From positions 1 through 55,687 of the forward strand of contig CAIYHQ010000107.1 of NCBI GenBank assembly GCA_903926075.1: a DNA stretch of 55,687 bases, read 5' to 3'. Shown here piece after piece: positions 37,400 through 43,757 of this stretch. The notes beneath the pieces were generated by a model, which was given only the letters and a program-made list of their open reading frames with translations, searched no databases and was not told where the DNA came from. Position 1 is the stretch's first letter; each line of letters opens with the position of its first letter. The translations under genes and the position numbers were made by a program. This DNA comes from an uncultured Methanomicrobiales archaeon (lineage in GTDB: Archaea > Halobacteriota > Methanomicrobia > Methanomicrobiales > Methanospirillaceae).

Positions 37400-39352
37400 T
37401 CAATTGTTTTTTTCTCTATGTTTAATTGTAAAAAAGAACGTTGCCCCTTCATTAATAACGGATTCTGCCCATACCAATCCACCATGACGGGAAATAATTC
37501 GTTTTACAATTGCAAGACCCACGCCTGTTCCAGTGAAATCGTCCTGACTATGAAGCCTGGAAAAGACAAGGAAAAGTTTTTTAACATTTGCCATATCAAA
37601 CCCAGCACCATTATCTTTTACAAAGTACACAGGTAAACCGTTTTTCTGTGTAGATCCAATAATTACTTTAGGTTTCTCTACTTTATTTGAAAATTTCAAA
37701 GCATTTGAAAGCAGATTTTCGATAACCTGGCCAATTAGTAACGGGTCACCATAACAGGGCGGAAGTTCCTCAATTGTCACAATAGACCGTATATCAGGGT
37801 ACTGGTTTGATAAAAGTTCGACTTTGTCCTCAACTACCTGATTAAGGTTGACCGTCTCTCTTTTTAGTTCATACCTGCCAATTCTTGAAAATTGAAGAAT
37901 ATTATCTATAAGTATCTCCATTCTTTTTACGTTTTCAAAAATACGCATAAGGCTATGAAGACCGTCTTCTTTAAGGCACTCTTTGTAGTCTTCTTCAATT
38001 ATCCTCGCAAATCCATCTATAACCCTTATTGGTGCTCTGAGATCATGCGATATTGAGTAACTAAAAGATTCAAGTTCACTGTTCATAGTTTCAAGTTCTT
38101 CTGTACGTTTTTTAACCCTTGATTCAAGTTCTATATTCATTGATAATATTTGCTCTTCGCTTTTCTTCAGTTTCTCTTTTTGCTCTTCAAGTTTTTCGAT
38201 GTTCTTCTTGAAATGTGAGACCATATTGTTAATGCTTTTACTTAACTGGTGAAATTCATAGGAATTTGTCTGTGAAATATAGTGATCAAGGTCTCCGTTT
38301 GAGATCTGGGTTATATCATTCACAATTGTATTAATCGGCTTTACTACTCTTTTTGTGACATAAAGAACAATTCCGACCGAGAATAATATTGCAAGTATGC
38401 ATATAATTAAATAGAGGAAAAAGTGTTCATTTTGTATTTTCTTAATTTTTGCAACATCATAAGTGATAACCGCTACCTCACTTGCATCGCTTCCAACCTT
38501 CTCGTCACTTAAGTCGATATAAAGATATTTGAATAGTTTCTGACCATCAGGGCTTATTTCTTCAGTAATTTTTTTGTCATGGGAAAAAGTTATTACTTTT
38601 TGTGAAATAGAAGGATCAGAAACATTCATCTGACTTTGCCCTTCGACTTTATTCCCAAAGATATTGAATAGTTCGATATCACGGATATATGGATTTAGTA
38701 ACTTAATGTCATCTATTATTTTTGAATTGTTCTTTGCAAACCTGCTTCTGTCAGGTATAAATTTTTCTGGTATAAGCCCAAGTTCAAGGATATATTTGTG
38801 GTCCGGGGTAGGCATGTATCCAAATTTTCTCAGGTTTCCGGATAGTACCTCACTGGAGATTCTATCTGGGAAGAAGCCCTGCGTCCCTCTGATATTATCG
38901 AGATAAGATGCAAATTCAGGAGCAATTTTCCTGAAATCCAAATTTAATTCTGGTGTATATGTAGCAAATTCAATTGCATCCGAAGAATTAATAATATAAA
39001 GGTCTATTTTGTCATTCATCTGTTTTTTTAATGCCACCAGATCAATCTTATCTGGTGAACCATTACTTTTATTGTAAGCATCCATAAATAACGGAAATTC
39101 GTCCCCAAGTTCAGAATTTAGTGAACTATCATATAGTTTTAGTCCGGCGTCCATCAGTTGAAGAGATTCTACCAGATTATATTCTGATGAAAGTTTTTGG
39201 TTATTTATTCCTTCACTCAATAAGATAGAAGTCTGCAGGTAGCTAATGACAATAATACTCGTAATTATTATGAATAAAACTATGAAGATCCATTTAATAA
39301 GTTCATGAGAAAAAGGGGGTCTGATCGGAGTTGATCTCAACCGGAACTTCAT
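37400..39352 (-). CDS. Membrane sensor histidine kinase
   Basis: A 650-residue sensor. TM1 (21-41) and TM2 (311-333) enclose an outer domain of about 270 residues that resembles a Cache-type ligand pocket but is not identified firmly. HAMP (332-385) is followed by a coiled coil (385-430). HisKA has the phospho-acceptor H436 in YSISHDLRAP. HATPase has the N box ENLLSN (545-550), G1 DNGAGF (580-585) and G2 GTGVGLAI (608-615). All catalytic motifs look intact. No response regulator is adjacent. It is convergent with gltX across an 83-base gap and divergent from the small secreted protein. Confidence 0.93.
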   Translation of the reverse strand: MKFRLRSTPIRPPFSHELIKWIFIVLFIIITSIIVISYLQTSILLSEGINNQKLSSEYNLVESLQLMDAGLKLYDSSLNSELGDEFPLFMDAYNKSNGSPDKIDLVALKKQMNDKIDLYIINSSDAIEFATYTPELNLDFRKIAPEFASYLDNIRGTQGFFPDRISSEVLSGNLRKFGYMPTPDHKYILELGLIPEKFIPDRSRFAKNNSKIIDDIKLLNPYIRDIELFNIFGNKVEGQSQMNVSDPSISQKVITFSHDKKITEEISPDGQKLFKYLYIDLSDEKVGSDASEVAVITYDVAKIKKIQNEHFFLYLIICILAILFSVGIVLYVTKRVVKPINTIVNDITQISNGDLDHYISQTNSYEFHQLSKSINNMVSHFKKNIEKLEEQKEKLKKSEEQILSMNIELESRVKKRTEELETMNSELESFSYSISHDLRAPIRVIDGFARIIEEDYKECLKEDGLHSLMRIFENVKRMEILIDNILQFSRIGRYELKRETVNLNQVVEDKVELLSNQYPDIRSIVTIEELPPCYGDPLLIGQVIENLLSNALKFSNKVEKPKVIIGSTQKNGLPVYFVKDNGAGFDMANVKKLFLVFSRLHSQDDFTGTGVGLAIVKRIISRHGGLVWAESVINEGATFFFTIKHREKNN

Positions 39353-39429
39353 ATTTATTTGTATAATTTTAACTTTTTAATATCTTTTGAATTAGCTGAA
39401 TATTTTGTTCAGATAATATTATTTGTATA

Positions 39430-39452
39430 ATTGTGGTTGACTATACCACAAT
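39430..39452 (+). promoter_or_regulatory. Inverted repeat (operator candidate) before a TATA box
   Basis: ATTGTGGT and ACCACAAT form a perfect 8-bp inverted repeat with a 7-base spacer (TGACTAT). It ends exactly where a TATA-like element begins. The position overlaps the BRE area of the secreted-protein promoter, so a bound factor could block or recruit TFB. Two copies of the direct repeat TATTTGTATAATT flank the region on the left (39356-39368 and 39420-39432); the second touches this palindrome. Confidence 0.5.
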
Positions 39453-39461
39453 GTATAAAAG
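39453..39461 (+). promoter_or_regulatory. TATA box for the secreted-protein gene
   Basis: GTATAAAAG is the best TATA-like element in the 203-base divergent region between the kinase (minus) and the secreted protein (plus). It would give a transcript start near 39480 and a leader of about 75 bases before ATG 39556. The palindrome at 39430-39452 abuts it. Confidence 0.45.
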
Positions 39462-39555
39462 ATAGTTATGCATGATATCTCATATATTAATTATTTTAAT
39501 TGAAGTGTTACCAGAAACTGGCTTTTCATGTTCAATTGAAGAGGGATGAGATTTC

Positions 39556-40038
39556 ATGTATTTAAAAAAGATATTATTGCTAGTGATATGTTCTGTTGTC
39601 GTTTGTATAGTATGCAGTGCCAACCCGGTTGGTTTTAGACAGGGCGGGGTGCCATCTGGAGTCTCTACTCAATTATTTTTGAGTGATTCTGGTTCCCAAC
39701 TTAATGATCATCATATCTTGAAAAATCTTAATGCAGCTACACCTACTAAAACCACAAGAGTCACTCATACTCCCAAAGTTTCAGTGACTTCAGGTTCAGC
39801 AGACAATCCGTATTGGGGAATAATGCTTGTTGCCCAGTTTATGTCAGCAAATAAAAGCGAAATTGCAGATATCAGGTTCAACATAACAATTACAATACCG
39901 GTTATAACAAATATACCTAATACAACAAAAAAAGTAGCAACAAAAACAACATCGAAAATAACTGTCAAACAAAGTGTTAAAGTGGTAAATGTAACCCCTG
40001 CCGTGAATGTAACTCGAACATTAATTATTTCTCCATGA
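39556..40038 (+). CDS. Small secreted Thr-rich protein of unknown function
   Basis: A 160-residue protein with an N-terminal hydrophobic signal segment (basic KK at 4-5, core residues 6-20) ending near CSANPVG. The mature part is rich in Thr, Asn and Ser. Several N-x-S/T sequons are near the end (NIT, NVT), and the Thr/Lys-rich stretch TTKKVATKTTSKITV looks like a stalk or wall-attached tail. No known domain is recognised. Its start ATG has GAGGGATGAG upstream. It lies 62 bases before the PKD-TPR gene in the same direction, so both may respond to the same promoter. Confidence 0.7.
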   Translation: MYLKKILLLVICSVVVCIVCSANPVGFRQGGVPSGVSTQLFLSDSGSQLNDHHILKNLNAATPTKTTRVTHTPKVSVTSGSADNPYWGIMLVAQFMSANKSEIADIRFNITITIPVITNIPNTTKKVATKTTSKITVKQSVKVVNVTPAVNVTRTLIISP

Positions 40039-40099
40039 AGACGAATCAAATCATCCCGGCAAATCAAAGTGTTAGCTGGATAAAATTAATTTAGGCACC

Positions 40100-41350
40100 A
40101 TGAAGAAGGATTGGCTGGATAAAAAACGCGTTTCTTTTTGTTTTTTACTCTTCATCCTTTTTTTTCCAATAATAGCCGGTGCTGTTAGTCCAATACAGGC
40201 GAGTTTTTCGTTCAGGCCTATAAGAGGTGATGCACCCCTGACTGTTTACTTTTCAGGGACTTCAAATGCCAATATTGAAAGTTGGATTTGGGAATTTGGT
40301 GATGGTACATCTCTTGATCAAATGAAACCTTCTCATAATTATACCCGTCCCGGGTCATATAGAGTGAAGCTTACTGTGAGTAATAAGGAGGGTAGTTATA
40401 CTGCATACTCAAAACAGCTAATCACAGTATATGGTAAAGGAAACCAGTCATATATGGCATTACCTGAGAACTCAAACATAGAAAATAATCTCTGGTTTGA
40501 ATCAGGAATTGAATTTTTAAAGATAGGTGATTATTCTAGTGCCAACCGATGTTTTACATCATTAATAAACTTAGAATTAAAAAACGACTCTGCATATTAC
40601 TACGAGGGAGAGTCACTTTACGGATTAAAAGAGTACAGTAAAGCATTAAAGGCGTATGAGAAAGCCCTTACATTGAATCCCACAAATGCCAGTTACCTGT
40701 TTGCAATAGGAAAAGTTGAGAATTCTCTTGGCCAATATAAGGACGCAATAAAATCATTTGAAAAAGCCCTGAAAATTAATTCATCATTAATAGATGCATA
40801 TGCAGGTCTTGCTGATGCAAAGATGAACTCAGGTGACATGGAAAATGCGATATTAAGTTATAGGTATGCAATTAATTTATCTCCGGATAACCCTGTTTAC
40901 TGGATGAATTATGCAATGTCTTTGTATAAAAGTGGCCAATACAACCCTGCCCTGCCCTGGTTTGAGAAAGTTGTCAATGTTTCACCTGATAACGAAGAAG
41001 CTTTTTTATTTCTTGGAAATAATAAATACAGGCTCAATGATTATAATGGCTCAATAGACGCCTATTCCAGAGCAATTCTATTAAACCCAGGAAACAAACT
41101 GAACTGGCAATACAAGGGTAGAAGTCTTTTCACTCTTGGACAATATGACGAAGCTCTGTTTTGTTTTGAGAAAGCATTGGAAATTGATAAAAGGGATGCA
41201 ATTCTCTGGCAACTGAAAGCAGATGCACTCTATAAATTAGGTCGTTTAACGGAAGCACGTGATAGTATTGATCGCTCCCTCGTGTTACAGCCGGAAAATC
41301 CTTTTGCATGGAAAGATAAGTCATTAATTGAGACAGAAATTGTGAAATAA
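40100..41350 (+). CDS. Secreted PKD-TPR repeat protein
   Basis: A 416-residue protein: signal or anchor segment (residues ~10-30), one PKD domain (~33-113, with FGDGTSLDQMKPSHNYTRPGSYRVKLTVSN), then about eight tandem 34-residue TPR units (~128-410), for example SKALKAYEKALTLNPTNASY and DEALFCFEKALEIDKRDAIL. PKD domains are common in surface proteins of methanogens; TPRs mediate protein contacts. A PKD domain in front of TPRs on the outer side is a notable combination. It may display a binding scaffold at the cell surface. The 3' end is 8 bases from the convergent TIR gene. Confidence 0.88.
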   Translation: MKKDWLDKKRVSFCFLLFILFFPIIAGAVSPIQASFSFRPIRGDAPLTVYFSGTSNANIESWIWEFGDGTSLDQMKPSHNYTRPGSYRVKLTVSNKEGSYTAYSKQLITVYGKGNQSYMALPENSNIENNLWFESGIEFLKIGDYSSANRCFTSLINLELKNDSAYYYEGESLYGLKEYSKALKAYEKALTLNPTNASYLFAIGKVENSLGQYKDAIKSFEKALKINSSLIDAYAGLADAKMNSGDMENAILSYRYAINLSPDNPVYWMNYAMSLYKSGQYNPALPWFEKVVNVSPDNEEAFLFLGNNKYRLNDYNGSIDAYSRAILLNPGNKLNWQYKGRSLFTLGQYDEALFCFEKALEIDKRDAILWQLKADALYKLGRLTEARDSIDRSLVLQPENPFAWKDKSLIETEIVK

Positions 41351-41358
41351 GGTTAAAT

Positions 41359-42504
41359 TCAGGAGCCAGAACCGCTATCAGAACCGCCTGAACTGTCATC
41401 ATTTCTTTTGTTTGGATCAAGAGTCCGGTATACCACAGGAGCTTTAAGAAATACCATCGATATAGCGTGGGTATTACTGATTTCTTTTTTGGCTGTAACT
41501 GGCATAGGGACTGCGTTTAATAGATATTGACCAGATATGAACGTAACATTGTTCGTATTCCATAGGTAATTCCAGGTGCCGTCCTGTCCGACATCTGTTT
41601 GGATAAATGAATCTGGTAGATTGCTATCAACGAGAATGGAAAAGTTTTGCAGGTTTAATCTGGATTCAGGCAGAGAATTACCTGTAACATATAGATATGT
41701 TTTTTTACTTACCGTATTTTTCCCTGTAATCTGGATAGGATCGCCCACATTAAAAACATTGTCTCTTCCAGTCGAAATAGTGATGGAGCCATTAAGGTTT
41801 AACAACTGCTCAGTGGGTGTTGCAATTATATGTTGTGTTTCGATAGGTGAGGATCGGTTTGAGGCGGATGAAGGAGAAGTATTTAGTGAATTGATTCTAT
41901 CCTGGGAAATAGTTCGGCCTGGCAAGGTACTGTAAATTGCAAATGAAGCGATAGATATGATAAGGATTATAAAAACTATCCATAGCCGTTTATTGTAAAA
42001 AAATAAATATTTCGTTTGCTCACTCTTTTGTTTCTTACTCAAGTCAGTTTTGTTGTCGACTATAACTTGACTCATCTCTCCGTTAAGATGTTTTTTAATG
42101 TTCCTGATAAGTTGTGGAAAGAATTGATCGGGTGAACCTTTAAACGCATCAAACCATTGGGAAGTTGCGCAATAATATTCAAGACTTTTTGAAGGTTCGA
42201 TATCCTCTATCCGGATAGGTATGAGGATCAAATCTTTTTTAACCGCTCTCTCTACCTCGCGGATAACATGTTTTGATTTATTTGAATTACTTGATAGAAG
42301 TAAGAGCATCATTTTGCTGTTATCTATCCCGTGGATTATCTCTCCTGCGTAGTCTTTTCCTGGACTTATATCTCTAGGTGCGATAAAAACTAAAAATCCT
42401 GATTTTTCGAGTAGATCACAGAGATTAAAGGCAATATCTTTGTCGACAGAGGCGTAACTAATGAAGATTTTTAACTTATTTTCTTCAACATCACCAGTAT
42501 TCAT
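41359..42504 (-). CDS. TIR-domain membrane protein with outer beta-type domain
   Basis: A 381-residue single-pass protein. Residues 11-140 are a TIR fold: KIFISYASVDKDIA (start), VFIAPRDISPGKDY (BB-loop region), MMLLLLSSNSNKSKHV and REVERAV. E83 or E85 there is the candidate catalytic glutamate of NADase TIRs. A transmembrane helix spans ~173-193. After a Ser/Thr-rich linker, residues 236-355 form a beta-rich segment with GDPIQITGKN and LYVTGNSLPESRLNL, resembling archaeal surface domains. The tail is Gly/Ser/Asp rich. The gene is 6 bases after the FTR gene and may be co-transcribed with the purine genes. Enzymatic activity is not proven by sequence. Confidence 0.85.
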   Translation of the reverse strand: MNTGDVEENKLKIFISYASVDKDIAFNLCDLLEKSGFLVFIAPRDISPGKDYAGEIIHGIDNSKMMLLLLSSNSNKSKHVIREVERAVKKDLILIPIRIEDIEPSKSLEYYCATSQWFDAFKGSPDQFFPQLIRNIKKHLNGEMSQVIVDNKTDLSKKQKSEQTKYLFFYNKRLWIVFIILIISIASFAIYSTLPGRTISQDRINSLNTSPSSASNRSSPIETQHIIATPTEQLLNLNGSITISTGRDNVFNVGDPIQITGKNTVSKKTYLYVTGNSLPESRLNLQNFSILVDSNLPDSFIQTDVGQDGTWNYLWNTNNVTFISGQYLLNAVPMPVTAKKEISNTHAISMVFLKAPVVYRTLDPNKRNDDSSGGSDSGSGS

Positions 42505-42510
42505 TCATAA

Positions 42511-42801
42511 TCACTTCTTTTCAAAGAAAAGATGGCAGTGACAATTTCCCTCTTTTTTTATCTCATCACGGTGAAAAGCACACGGACAGATAATCTCTTT
42601 ATCCTGTTCTTTATCACCGCTTCGCAACCGACAAGGACAATATTGCTCGCCATACTTTACTTTATTACGCAAAAGTCCTTTTATTACAATTTCCAAACGT
42701 TCAGGATCCGGATTAAGGATATAACCATTATTAGTTGCATATTCCCCGGCCCAGTTTAAAATTTCTTTTCTTCGTTCAGACTCTGAAATATCGTCAGTCA
42801 T
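42511..42801 (-). CDS. Ferredoxin:thioredoxin reductase catalytic subunit-like protein
   Basis: A 96-residue protein with the FTR catalytic-chain cysteine pattern: CPC (55-57), CPC (72-74), CHC (87-89). These supply the [4Fe-4S] cluster and the adjacent redox disulfide that passes electrons from ferredoxin to thioredoxin. No variable-chain subunit is adjacent, as is usual for archaeal FTR. It lies 12 bases downstream of purQ and 6 bases upstream of the TIR gene on the minus strand. Possible role: redox control of methanogenesis enzymes via thioredoxin. Confidence 0.88.
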   Translation of the reverse strand: MTDDISESERRKEILNWAGEYATNNGYILNPDPERLEIVIKGLLRNKVKYGEQYCPCRLRSGDKEQDKEIICPCAFHRDEIKKEGNCHCHLFFEKK

Positions 42802-42813
42802 TTTAATGTTTCC

Positions 42814-43515
42814 TTATTTTTTGCTATTCTCGATATGGTCCCGCATCGAAGTAAAGATTTTTATTCCCTCGTTTGAACCAAGAAGAAGTTCTGATGCCCT
42901 TTCTGGATGTGGCATCATGGCTAGGACATTTCCAGAATCTGATAAAACGCCGGTAATCCCGTGCAATGAACCATTTGGGTTAGAAGAATTTCCATTATCT
43001 CCATTTTCATCACAAAAAGTAAATACAACATTTTCTTTTTCACTAAATCCAGAACCCTTCACCTCATCAACAAGAAATCTCCCTTCTTTATGGGCTATTG
43101 GTAGTGATATCACTTCTCCTGCGTTAAAATTTTTAGTGAAAGGTGATTTATTGTTTTTTACTTTAAGAGATACCCGTTTGCATATAAAAAGGTTTGAAAT
43201 GTTTGTTGTAAATGTCCCAGGGACAAGACCAGACTCTGCACATATTTGTGCACCGTTACATATACCCAGTACGAGTTTTCCTTTTTTCGCATGGTCTATA
43301 ATATCATTCATAATTGGTGTCCTTGCTGCAATTGCCCCGGCTCTTAGATAATCTCCATATGAAAATCCACCCGGAAGAATTATTGCATCATAATCACGAT
43401 TAAGGCGTTCTTTATACCAAATAAGGTCGGTCTCTATGTTGAGTAGATCACTCAATACATAATGAGTATCCCGGTCACAGTTGCTCCCACCGAACTGGAT
43501 GACCGCAAATCTCAT
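42814..43515 (-). CDS. purQ: Phosphoribosylformylglycinamidine synthase subunit PurQ
   Basis: Glutaminase subunit of FGAM synthase, which supplies ammonia to PurL. The class I amidotransferase fold shows FAVIQFGGSNCDRDT at the start, LPGGFSYGDYLRAGAIA and GICNGAQIC with the nucleophile cysteine. The final MMPHPERASE carries the catalytic His/Glu. The 233-residue length is typical. Its ATG overlaps the purS stop (ATGA). No purL is in the window. Confidence 0.96.
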   Translation of the reverse strand: MRFAVIQFGGSNCDRDTHYVLSDLLNIETDLIWYKERLNRDYDAIILPGGFSYGDYLRAGAIAARTPIMNDIIDHAKKGKLVLGICNGAQICAESGLVPGTFTTNISNLFICKRVSLKVKNNKSPFTKNFNAGEVISLPIAHKEGRFLVDEVKGSGFSEKENVVFTFCDENGDNGNSSNPNGSLHGITGVLSDSGNVLAMMPHPERASELLLGSNEGIKIFTSMRDHIENSKK

Positions 43516-43757
43516 CTTATTACCTCAATAGAATAATTATGAATAACCGGATTCGCCAGGAGCTTTTTACACATAAGGTCAGCCTGGATAGTTGCATCCT
43601 CAGTTGTGTCTGCTTCTATCTTAAAAGTAAACAGGCGTGCTGTATGGAATCCCGACGCCTTAAAACCGAGATTATCCAAGGCTTTTTCAATGGTTATTGC
43701 TTCCGGATCAAGCATACCTGTTTTTAATTCTACTTTAATTTTTGCAGTGTATTCCAT
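43512..43757 (-). CDS. purS: Phosphoribosylformylglycinamidine synthase subunit PurS
   Basis: An 81-residue small subunit that docks PurQ onto small-type PurL. Landmarks: KIKVELKTGMLDPEAITIEKALDNLGF and the C-terminal CKKLLANPVIHNYSIEV. Lies between purC (6 bases) and purQ (overlap). The gene set purC-purS-purQ covers two steps of de novo IMP synthesis. Confidence 0.95.
   Translation of the reverse strand: MEYTAKIKVELKTGMLDPEAITIEKALDNLGFKASGFHTARLFTFKIEADTTEDATIQADLMCKKLLANPVIHNYSIEVIR

Follow-up and report, generated by a model that had tools for sequence, protein, structure and literature searches.

To our knowledge, the known prokaryotic TIR defences sense infection within the cell. Thoeris is one such comparison: the TIR domain described here is homologous to that of ThsB (PF08937, 25 bits), and it scores 43.3 bits against the type III Thoeris protein ThcB4 (NF058526), for which the cut-off is 220. 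We considered a soluble effector of a known system and set it aside: PADLOC matches are at the domain level only, and no SIR2_2 (ThsA-type) protein, a partner by which Thoeris would be recognized, was found in the source genome, a MAG-like assembly of 134 contigs that is 97% complete.

Membrane receptors offer a different comparison. Members of the IL-1 receptor family have an Ig-like ectodomain, a single transmembrane (TM) helix and a cytosolic TIR domain (PMC7075850). The protein considered here, encoded in a 55,687-nt stretch of DNA from an uncultured Methanomicrobiales archaeon (contig CAIYHQ010000107.1, hereafter the window), is like them in the sense of working alike only: it is Ig-like outside, with one TM helix and a TIR domain inside, but the N- to C-terminal order is opposite, the S-layer Ig-like fold recognized by Foldseek shows no sequence kinship to animal Ig domains, and there is no animal adaptor pathway. 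With Toll and the Toll-like receptors it shares the single TM helix, the cytosolic TIR domain and an RDxxPG motif of the BB-loop type, and its best Foldseek match is Hydra TRR-2; it lacks their LRR ectodomain, and its TIR domain is N-terminal (residues 13-131) rather than C-terminal after the TM helix. The initial annotation had described the topology as Toll-like, which holds for the cytosolic TIR domain, the single TM helix and the outside domain but not for the order, which is reversed in this type II protein. It belongs to the TIR_2 family (PF13676) and to the membrane-anchored subfamily of TIR_2, not to the Toll family and probably not to the IL-1 receptor family.

The third comparison is with the S-layer glycoproteins of the MEMAR_RS02690 type (NF041431; the one encoded by this genome at L078:1369-3966 and, by description, Mhun_2263 of Methanospirillum hungatei), to which the ectodomain is homologous. 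Relative to these, the TIR protein is without signal peptide, DUF3821 and PGF-CTERM, and has a TIR domain added.

Architecture of the protein

Taken together, the sequence and the structural models show a predicted single-pass, type II, receptor-like TIR protein, with a cytoplasmic TIR domain, one TM helix and an extracellular Ig-like domain (Table 1). The parts and their order are well supported; ligand, activity and any role in defence we infer. The open reading frame (ORF) has 381 codons, starts with ATG, contains no internal stop, and lies on exactly the strand and coordinates first reported for it.

Table 1. Features of the TIR gene and its neighbors, in window coordinates
Feature	Position	Strand	Basis
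TIR - TM - S-layer Ig-like domain gene, whole	41359..42504	-	ORF call; 381 aa
Cytoplasmic TIR domain, residues 13-131	42112..42468	-	PF13676; AlphaFold2; Foldseek
Glu83 codon, candidate catalytic residue	42256..42258	-	alignment of relatives; AlphaFold2 model
Single transmembrane helix, residues 176-194	41923..41979	-	hydropathy; match to L003 runs through helix
Ser/Thr/Asn-rich extracellular linker, residues 195-237	41794..41922	-	sequence
S-layer Ig-like ectodomain, residues 238-359	41428..41793	-	NF041431; AlphaFold2; Foldseek
Asp/Gly/Ser-rich C-terminal tail, residues 360-381	41362..41427	-	sequence
Ferredoxin:thioredoxin reductase beta-like (FTR) gene	42511..42801	-	PF02943, E=1e-23
Exported PKD + TPR protein	40100..41350	+	hydrophobic N-terminus; PKD_4 + 7 TPR
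Membrane histidine kinase	37400..39352	-	HAMP, HisKA, HATPase_c

An N-terminal TIR fold had been proposed from the sequence, and Pfam, AlphaFold2 and Foldseek all agree with it. The TIR_2 profile matches above its gathering cut-off and over the whole domain (79.3 bits against a cut-off of 28, E=4.2e-22, profile positions 1-120 of 122), and the AlphaFold2 model, built with 30 relatives, has a mean pLDDT of 88 and a pTM of 0.84. Foldseek matches this model with probability 1.00 to TIR structures including Hydra TRR-2, human SARM1, AbTir and SPARTA TIR-APAZ (PDB entries 4w8g, 7anw, 7uxu and 8i87). In a profile search of the 3.14-Mb source genome, this was the sole TIR_2 protein.

The catalytic residue had been suggested to be Glu83 or Glu85. 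Of the 112 relatives aligned, 111 have Glu at position 83 and 67 at position 85, which rules out the latter and leaves E83 as the likely catalytic Glu of the domain, as far as the alignment can tell. In the model, E83 sits in helix 78-89, between strands 65-70 and 93-98, and the Glu essential for TIR NADase activity has been placed in a helix of this location (PMC7075850). Trp117 is invariant in the aligned relatives (112/112). At the neighboring position, which is the Trp of S-x-W in the animal and Cat1 TIR domains that were aligned, however, the alignment of this TIR_2 subfamily has mostly His or Gln; since E83 is conserved but this position is not, NAD+-cleaving activity is plausible, and we would put it no higher.

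A single TM helix is present where one had been predicted (about residues 173-193), the best 19-residue hydropathy window being 176-194 with a mean of 2.53. Because the protein has only this one helix and no signal peptide, the TIR and C-terminal domains must lie on opposite sides of the membrane, and the earlier placement of the TIR domain inside and the beta domain outside is upheld. The charge bias in this protein alone is weak, with 3 against 2 Lys/Arg in 15 residues and the TIR side higher. Across the 82 single-span members of the subfamily, with TM helices called by hydropathy window rather than by a trained predictor, the TIR side of the helix is richer in Lys/Arg in 71 and poorer in 5 (p=5e-16, for sequences that are related and hence not independent). 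The topology is thus type II, with the TIR domain inside at the N-terminus and the ectodomain outside at the C-terminus, the reverse of Toll and IL-1R. The linker beyond the helix has N-glycosylation sequons at residues 208 and 216.

The S-layer ectodomain

The C-terminal domain had been described as beta-rich, at residues 236-355, and of unknown kind. It starts at residue 238 and ends near 359, and its AlphaFold2 model (21 relatives, pLDDT 85) is an Ig-like sandwich of seven strands; its identity as an S-layer domain is new here. Residues 238-359 align with positions 390-511 of the 819-position NCBIfam model NF041431 (S_layer_MEMAR) (E=1.8e-19, 69.7 bits; E=2.1e-19 in a search of the source genome). 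The Foldseek matches listed for the ectodomain include Ig folds and the S-layer protein of Haloferax volcanii (7ptu), and the latter has the highest query-normalised TM-score among them (TMq 0.54). A search by sequence found no credible solved structure for the ectodomain family, a match to ExpZ being spurious. The TIR protein is not itself an S-layer protein: full membership of S_layer_MEMAR would need 600 bits rather than 69.7, only positions 390-511 of the model are covered, and a Pfam search found no match to DUF3821 or PGF-CTERM.

NF041431 also matches one true S-layer glycoprotein in the source genome (865 aa, contig C50, 1022.7 bits), and, with the N-terminal part of the model only, two further proteins. 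With the TIR protein as query in the same genome, the S-layer glycoprotein is the sole match besides the query itself, and this domain was found there only in these two proteins. In the glycoprotein it occupies residues 424-541, between DUF3821 (33-242) and the C-terminal PGF-CTERM. This layout of DUF3821 and PGF-CTERM is shared with the M. hungatei S-layer protein Mhun_2263, which has six Ig-like domains, D1 and D2 corresponding to DUF3821, and in which D4-D6 take part in both intra- and inter-hexamer contacts (PMC11641113). Comparison of positions with Mhun_2263 suggests that the homologous domain in the archaeon's own S-layer glycoprotein would be the fourth Ig-like domain, D4.

Identity between the ectodomain and this domain is 26% (26-33% with S-layer domains generally), which rules out a recent copy of the genome's own S-layer domain and means that the contact residues may have changed. 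In relatives, related domains are also present in small exported proteins, so that domains of this type are not specific to the lattice. The ectodomain offers a concrete candidate for what is sensed, and on its sequence the protein is a candidate sensor of damage to the coat or of attaching viruses.

A subfamily of membrane-anchored TIR proteins

TIR_2 membrane proteins of bacteria and Methanomicrobiales share the motifs CWIAPRD, PG, REVERA/RELT and HW/QW with this protein, and likewise have one TM helix, the TIR domain inside and an ectodomain outside; the S-layer domain is a feature of this protein, found in no other TIR_2 membrane protein examined. Scored with a subfamily HMM, the TIR_2 proteins of Methanomicrobiales split into two classes, and this protein, with 151.9 bits and its TM helix between TIR domain and ectodomain, falls in the class of at least 110 bits. 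The 30 Methanomicrobiales proteins of that class comprise 12 with the order TIR-TM-x, 11 with x-TM-TIR and 7 without TM. For 83 proteins from named genomes, which span many bacterial phyla and some Methanomicrobiales, the figures are 56, 3 and 20, with a further 4 multi-TM proteins; these fractions are not a census, because motif matches were used to draw the named sample, of which the 80 best loci were retained.

Single-span proteins thus make up 82 of the 113 subfamily members sampled. The initial annotation had expected prokaryotic TIR proteins to be mostly soluble effectors, whereas in this subfamily membrane anchoring prevails, and the TIR/TM/ectodomain layout whose presence in relatives was in question is found in other Methanomicrobiales. 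Since most members are single-span and their ectodomains differ, the receptor-like layout characterizes the subfamily. The ectodomains include TPR, PKD, Stig1-type cysteine repeats, Sel1, Bmp/PnrA, DUF6273, DUF4189, PPC and choline-binding repeats, as well as others without any named domain; judged by sequence, they are exchangeable on a widespread TIR-TM part. Several archaeal members are in the Toll order (signal peptide, TPR, TM, C-terminal TIR) and so nearer to Toll in layout than this protein; loci L011, L013, L016, L017, L021, L022 and L005, which have this arrangement, are spread across several Methanomicrobiales families.

An S-layer domain and a TIR domain were found in one protein in 1 of 232 genomes of the order Methanomicrobiales. 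Searches of 393 genomes from across the phylum and of the named loci gave no second example, and peptide patterns yielded no full-length relatives in the genome and viral contigs searched. We found no description of a TIR-S-layer fusion, or of prokaryotic TIR receptors of this layout, in the open-access literature, an absence that is not proof because subscription papers were not covered. The closest TIR-TM relative (locus L003, genome G081) matches at 43% over residues 13-192, a stretch that takes in the TM helix; beyond that its ectodomain is unrelated, as module exchange predicts. In a TIR tree this domain has a long end branch, and the nearest rows are bacterial sequences and L003. Because the tree has few columns and the end branch is long, it gives only a weak hint that the TIR-TM part may have been transferred from bacteria and later acquired a surface domain native to the archaeon.

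Genomic setting

The stop codon of the FTR gene lies 6 nt ahead of the start of the TIR gene; the two are probably co-transcribed, and the TIR gene may be read from a housekeeping operon. The order purS - purQ - FTR (42511-43757 in the window) is kept as a unit in 27 of 29 relatives (L202-L230) with no TIR gene behind it, and the TIR gene is absent at the matching operon in all 29. This conserved unit pairs an FTR-type protein with FGAM synthase subunits.

In one relative, L217, FTR and gltX are convergent and about 50 bp apart. Here they are separated by 5.1 kb (37400-42504), a segment missing in L217 that contains the membrane histidine kinase, a small exported protein, the exported PKD-TPR protein and the TIR gene. 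The absence of this segment from L217, and of a TIR gene behind purS-purQ-FTR in relatives, marks the TIR gene as accessory. The PKD-TPR gene is convergent with the TIR gene, and its product is a possible partner of the TIR protein. There is no defence island around the TIR gene, whose neighbors are purine-synthesis genes, the kinase and surface proteins. A conserved partner gene was also looked for beside TIR genes: PAS/kinase neighbors recur, but several of these loci represent a single orthologous locus and kinase genes are common, so we claim none.

Possible functions

The reading that we favor, tentatively and with a probability of roughly 0.4, is that this receptor-like TIR protein reports disturbance of the S-layer and acts through NAD+. 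The ectodomain would lie in the S-layer or directly beneath it, kept in place by contacts like those between S-layer Ig-like domains. Disturbance of the lattice, for instance by a virus using the S-layer as its receptor, would let the TIR proteins move or cluster; the clustered TIR domains, brought together as in other TIR assemblies, would then cleave NAD+, and either its depletion or an ADP-ribose signal would stop growth or virus replication. The coat would be a sensible thing to guard, since a haloarchaeal tailed virus uses an S-layer glycoprotein as its primary receptor (PMC10384203). A bolder version, which we regard as rather doubtful, is a prokaryotic surface immune receptor of the guard or integrated-decoy kind, in which a domain of the cell's own coat, a likely docking site of viruses, is wired through the membrane to a TIR enzyme, this protein being one of a large undescribed class of bacterial and archaeal TIR receptors with exchangeable ectodomains.

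The evidence can be arranged in other ways. The ectodomain copies a single S-layer domain and sits on an effector-type TIR in a subfamily whose members exchange ectodomains; with a haloarchaeal S-layer protein known as a virus receptor (PMC10384203), it could be an integrated decoy, a bait copying the virus-bound part of the S-layer, so that virus binding rather than lattice disturbance would trigger the TIR domain. This is unlikely: the host has no virus known to bind the domain, which would sit below or within the coat, and 26-33% identity is low for the mimic of a current self protein. An envelope-stress or environmental sensor without a role in defence, its TIR domain serving as scaffold or signaling module together with the histidine kinase and the exported PKD-TPR protein, is somewhat improbable, about on a par with the bolder version above. 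The genes share the approximately 5-kb accessory segment, and several subfamily ectodomains (Bmp solute-binding-like, TPR, PKD, choline-binding) resemble those of ordinary sensors, but the genes differ in strand and do not form one operon, no domain connects TIR and kinase, and a near-invariant Glu at the catalytic position would be superfluous in a pure scaffold. That the protein merely anchors the S-layer or spaces it from the membrane, with an incidental or degenerate TIR domain, seems more improbable than either: an S-layer domain with a TM helix would make a plausible anchor, and PGF-CTERM with a spacer is what normally holds the S-layer in this group (PMC11641113), but the genome's own S-layer protein already has PGF-CTERM, the TIR domain is intact with its active-site pattern, and since no other genome of the order was found to have the gene, its product is not structurally required. 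Least likely is a misjoining of a TIR-TM gene and an S-layer fragment during assembly or gene fusion; the combination is known from a single 134-contig assembly, but its reading frame is uninterrupted over 381 codons, the ectodomain is no fragment of this genome's S-layer gene (26% identity), and TIR-TM-ectodomain is the normal layout of the subfamily.

If a TIR domain does read the state of the S-layer, as in the favored reading, an archaeon would possess an immune receptor working from the outside in, with IL-1R/Toll-type parts assembled there independently. The TIR-TM-ectodomain layout was common across the bacteria and Methanomicrobiales surveyed, so that the question of prokaryotic cell-surface TIR receptors can be tested on many natural ectodomains.

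Other TIR loci

Eight further loci (L008, L009, L010, L014, L035, L083, L147, L151) encode a conserved TIR-TM protein whose ectodomain, of about 145 aa, forms an unnamed family of its own (motif YRS...VNTV...TRSDGT...GTRGTDRIQVIV...; no Pfam match). They are apparently one orthologous locus, adjoining ThiL-like genes. The protein of L240 (genome G248) has a signal-peptide-like N-terminus followed by what looks by eye like a glycan-binding domain of LamG/concanavalin type, a TM helix and a TIR domain. One Methanomicrobiales genome has an island of at least five TIR_2 proteins in 20 kb, including frames of 1868 and 1030 codons (L081; G033:C1 198400-218300), and at another locus (L097; G094:C62) three TIR proteins, 641-760 aa long, are encoded in tandem; they have one or two TM helices at the C-terminus and TIR domains of the more distant class. 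An 8.3-kb phage record from human faeces (MT836910.1, positions 1548-2006) encodes a TIR domain 42.5% identical to residues 3-161 of the protein described here.
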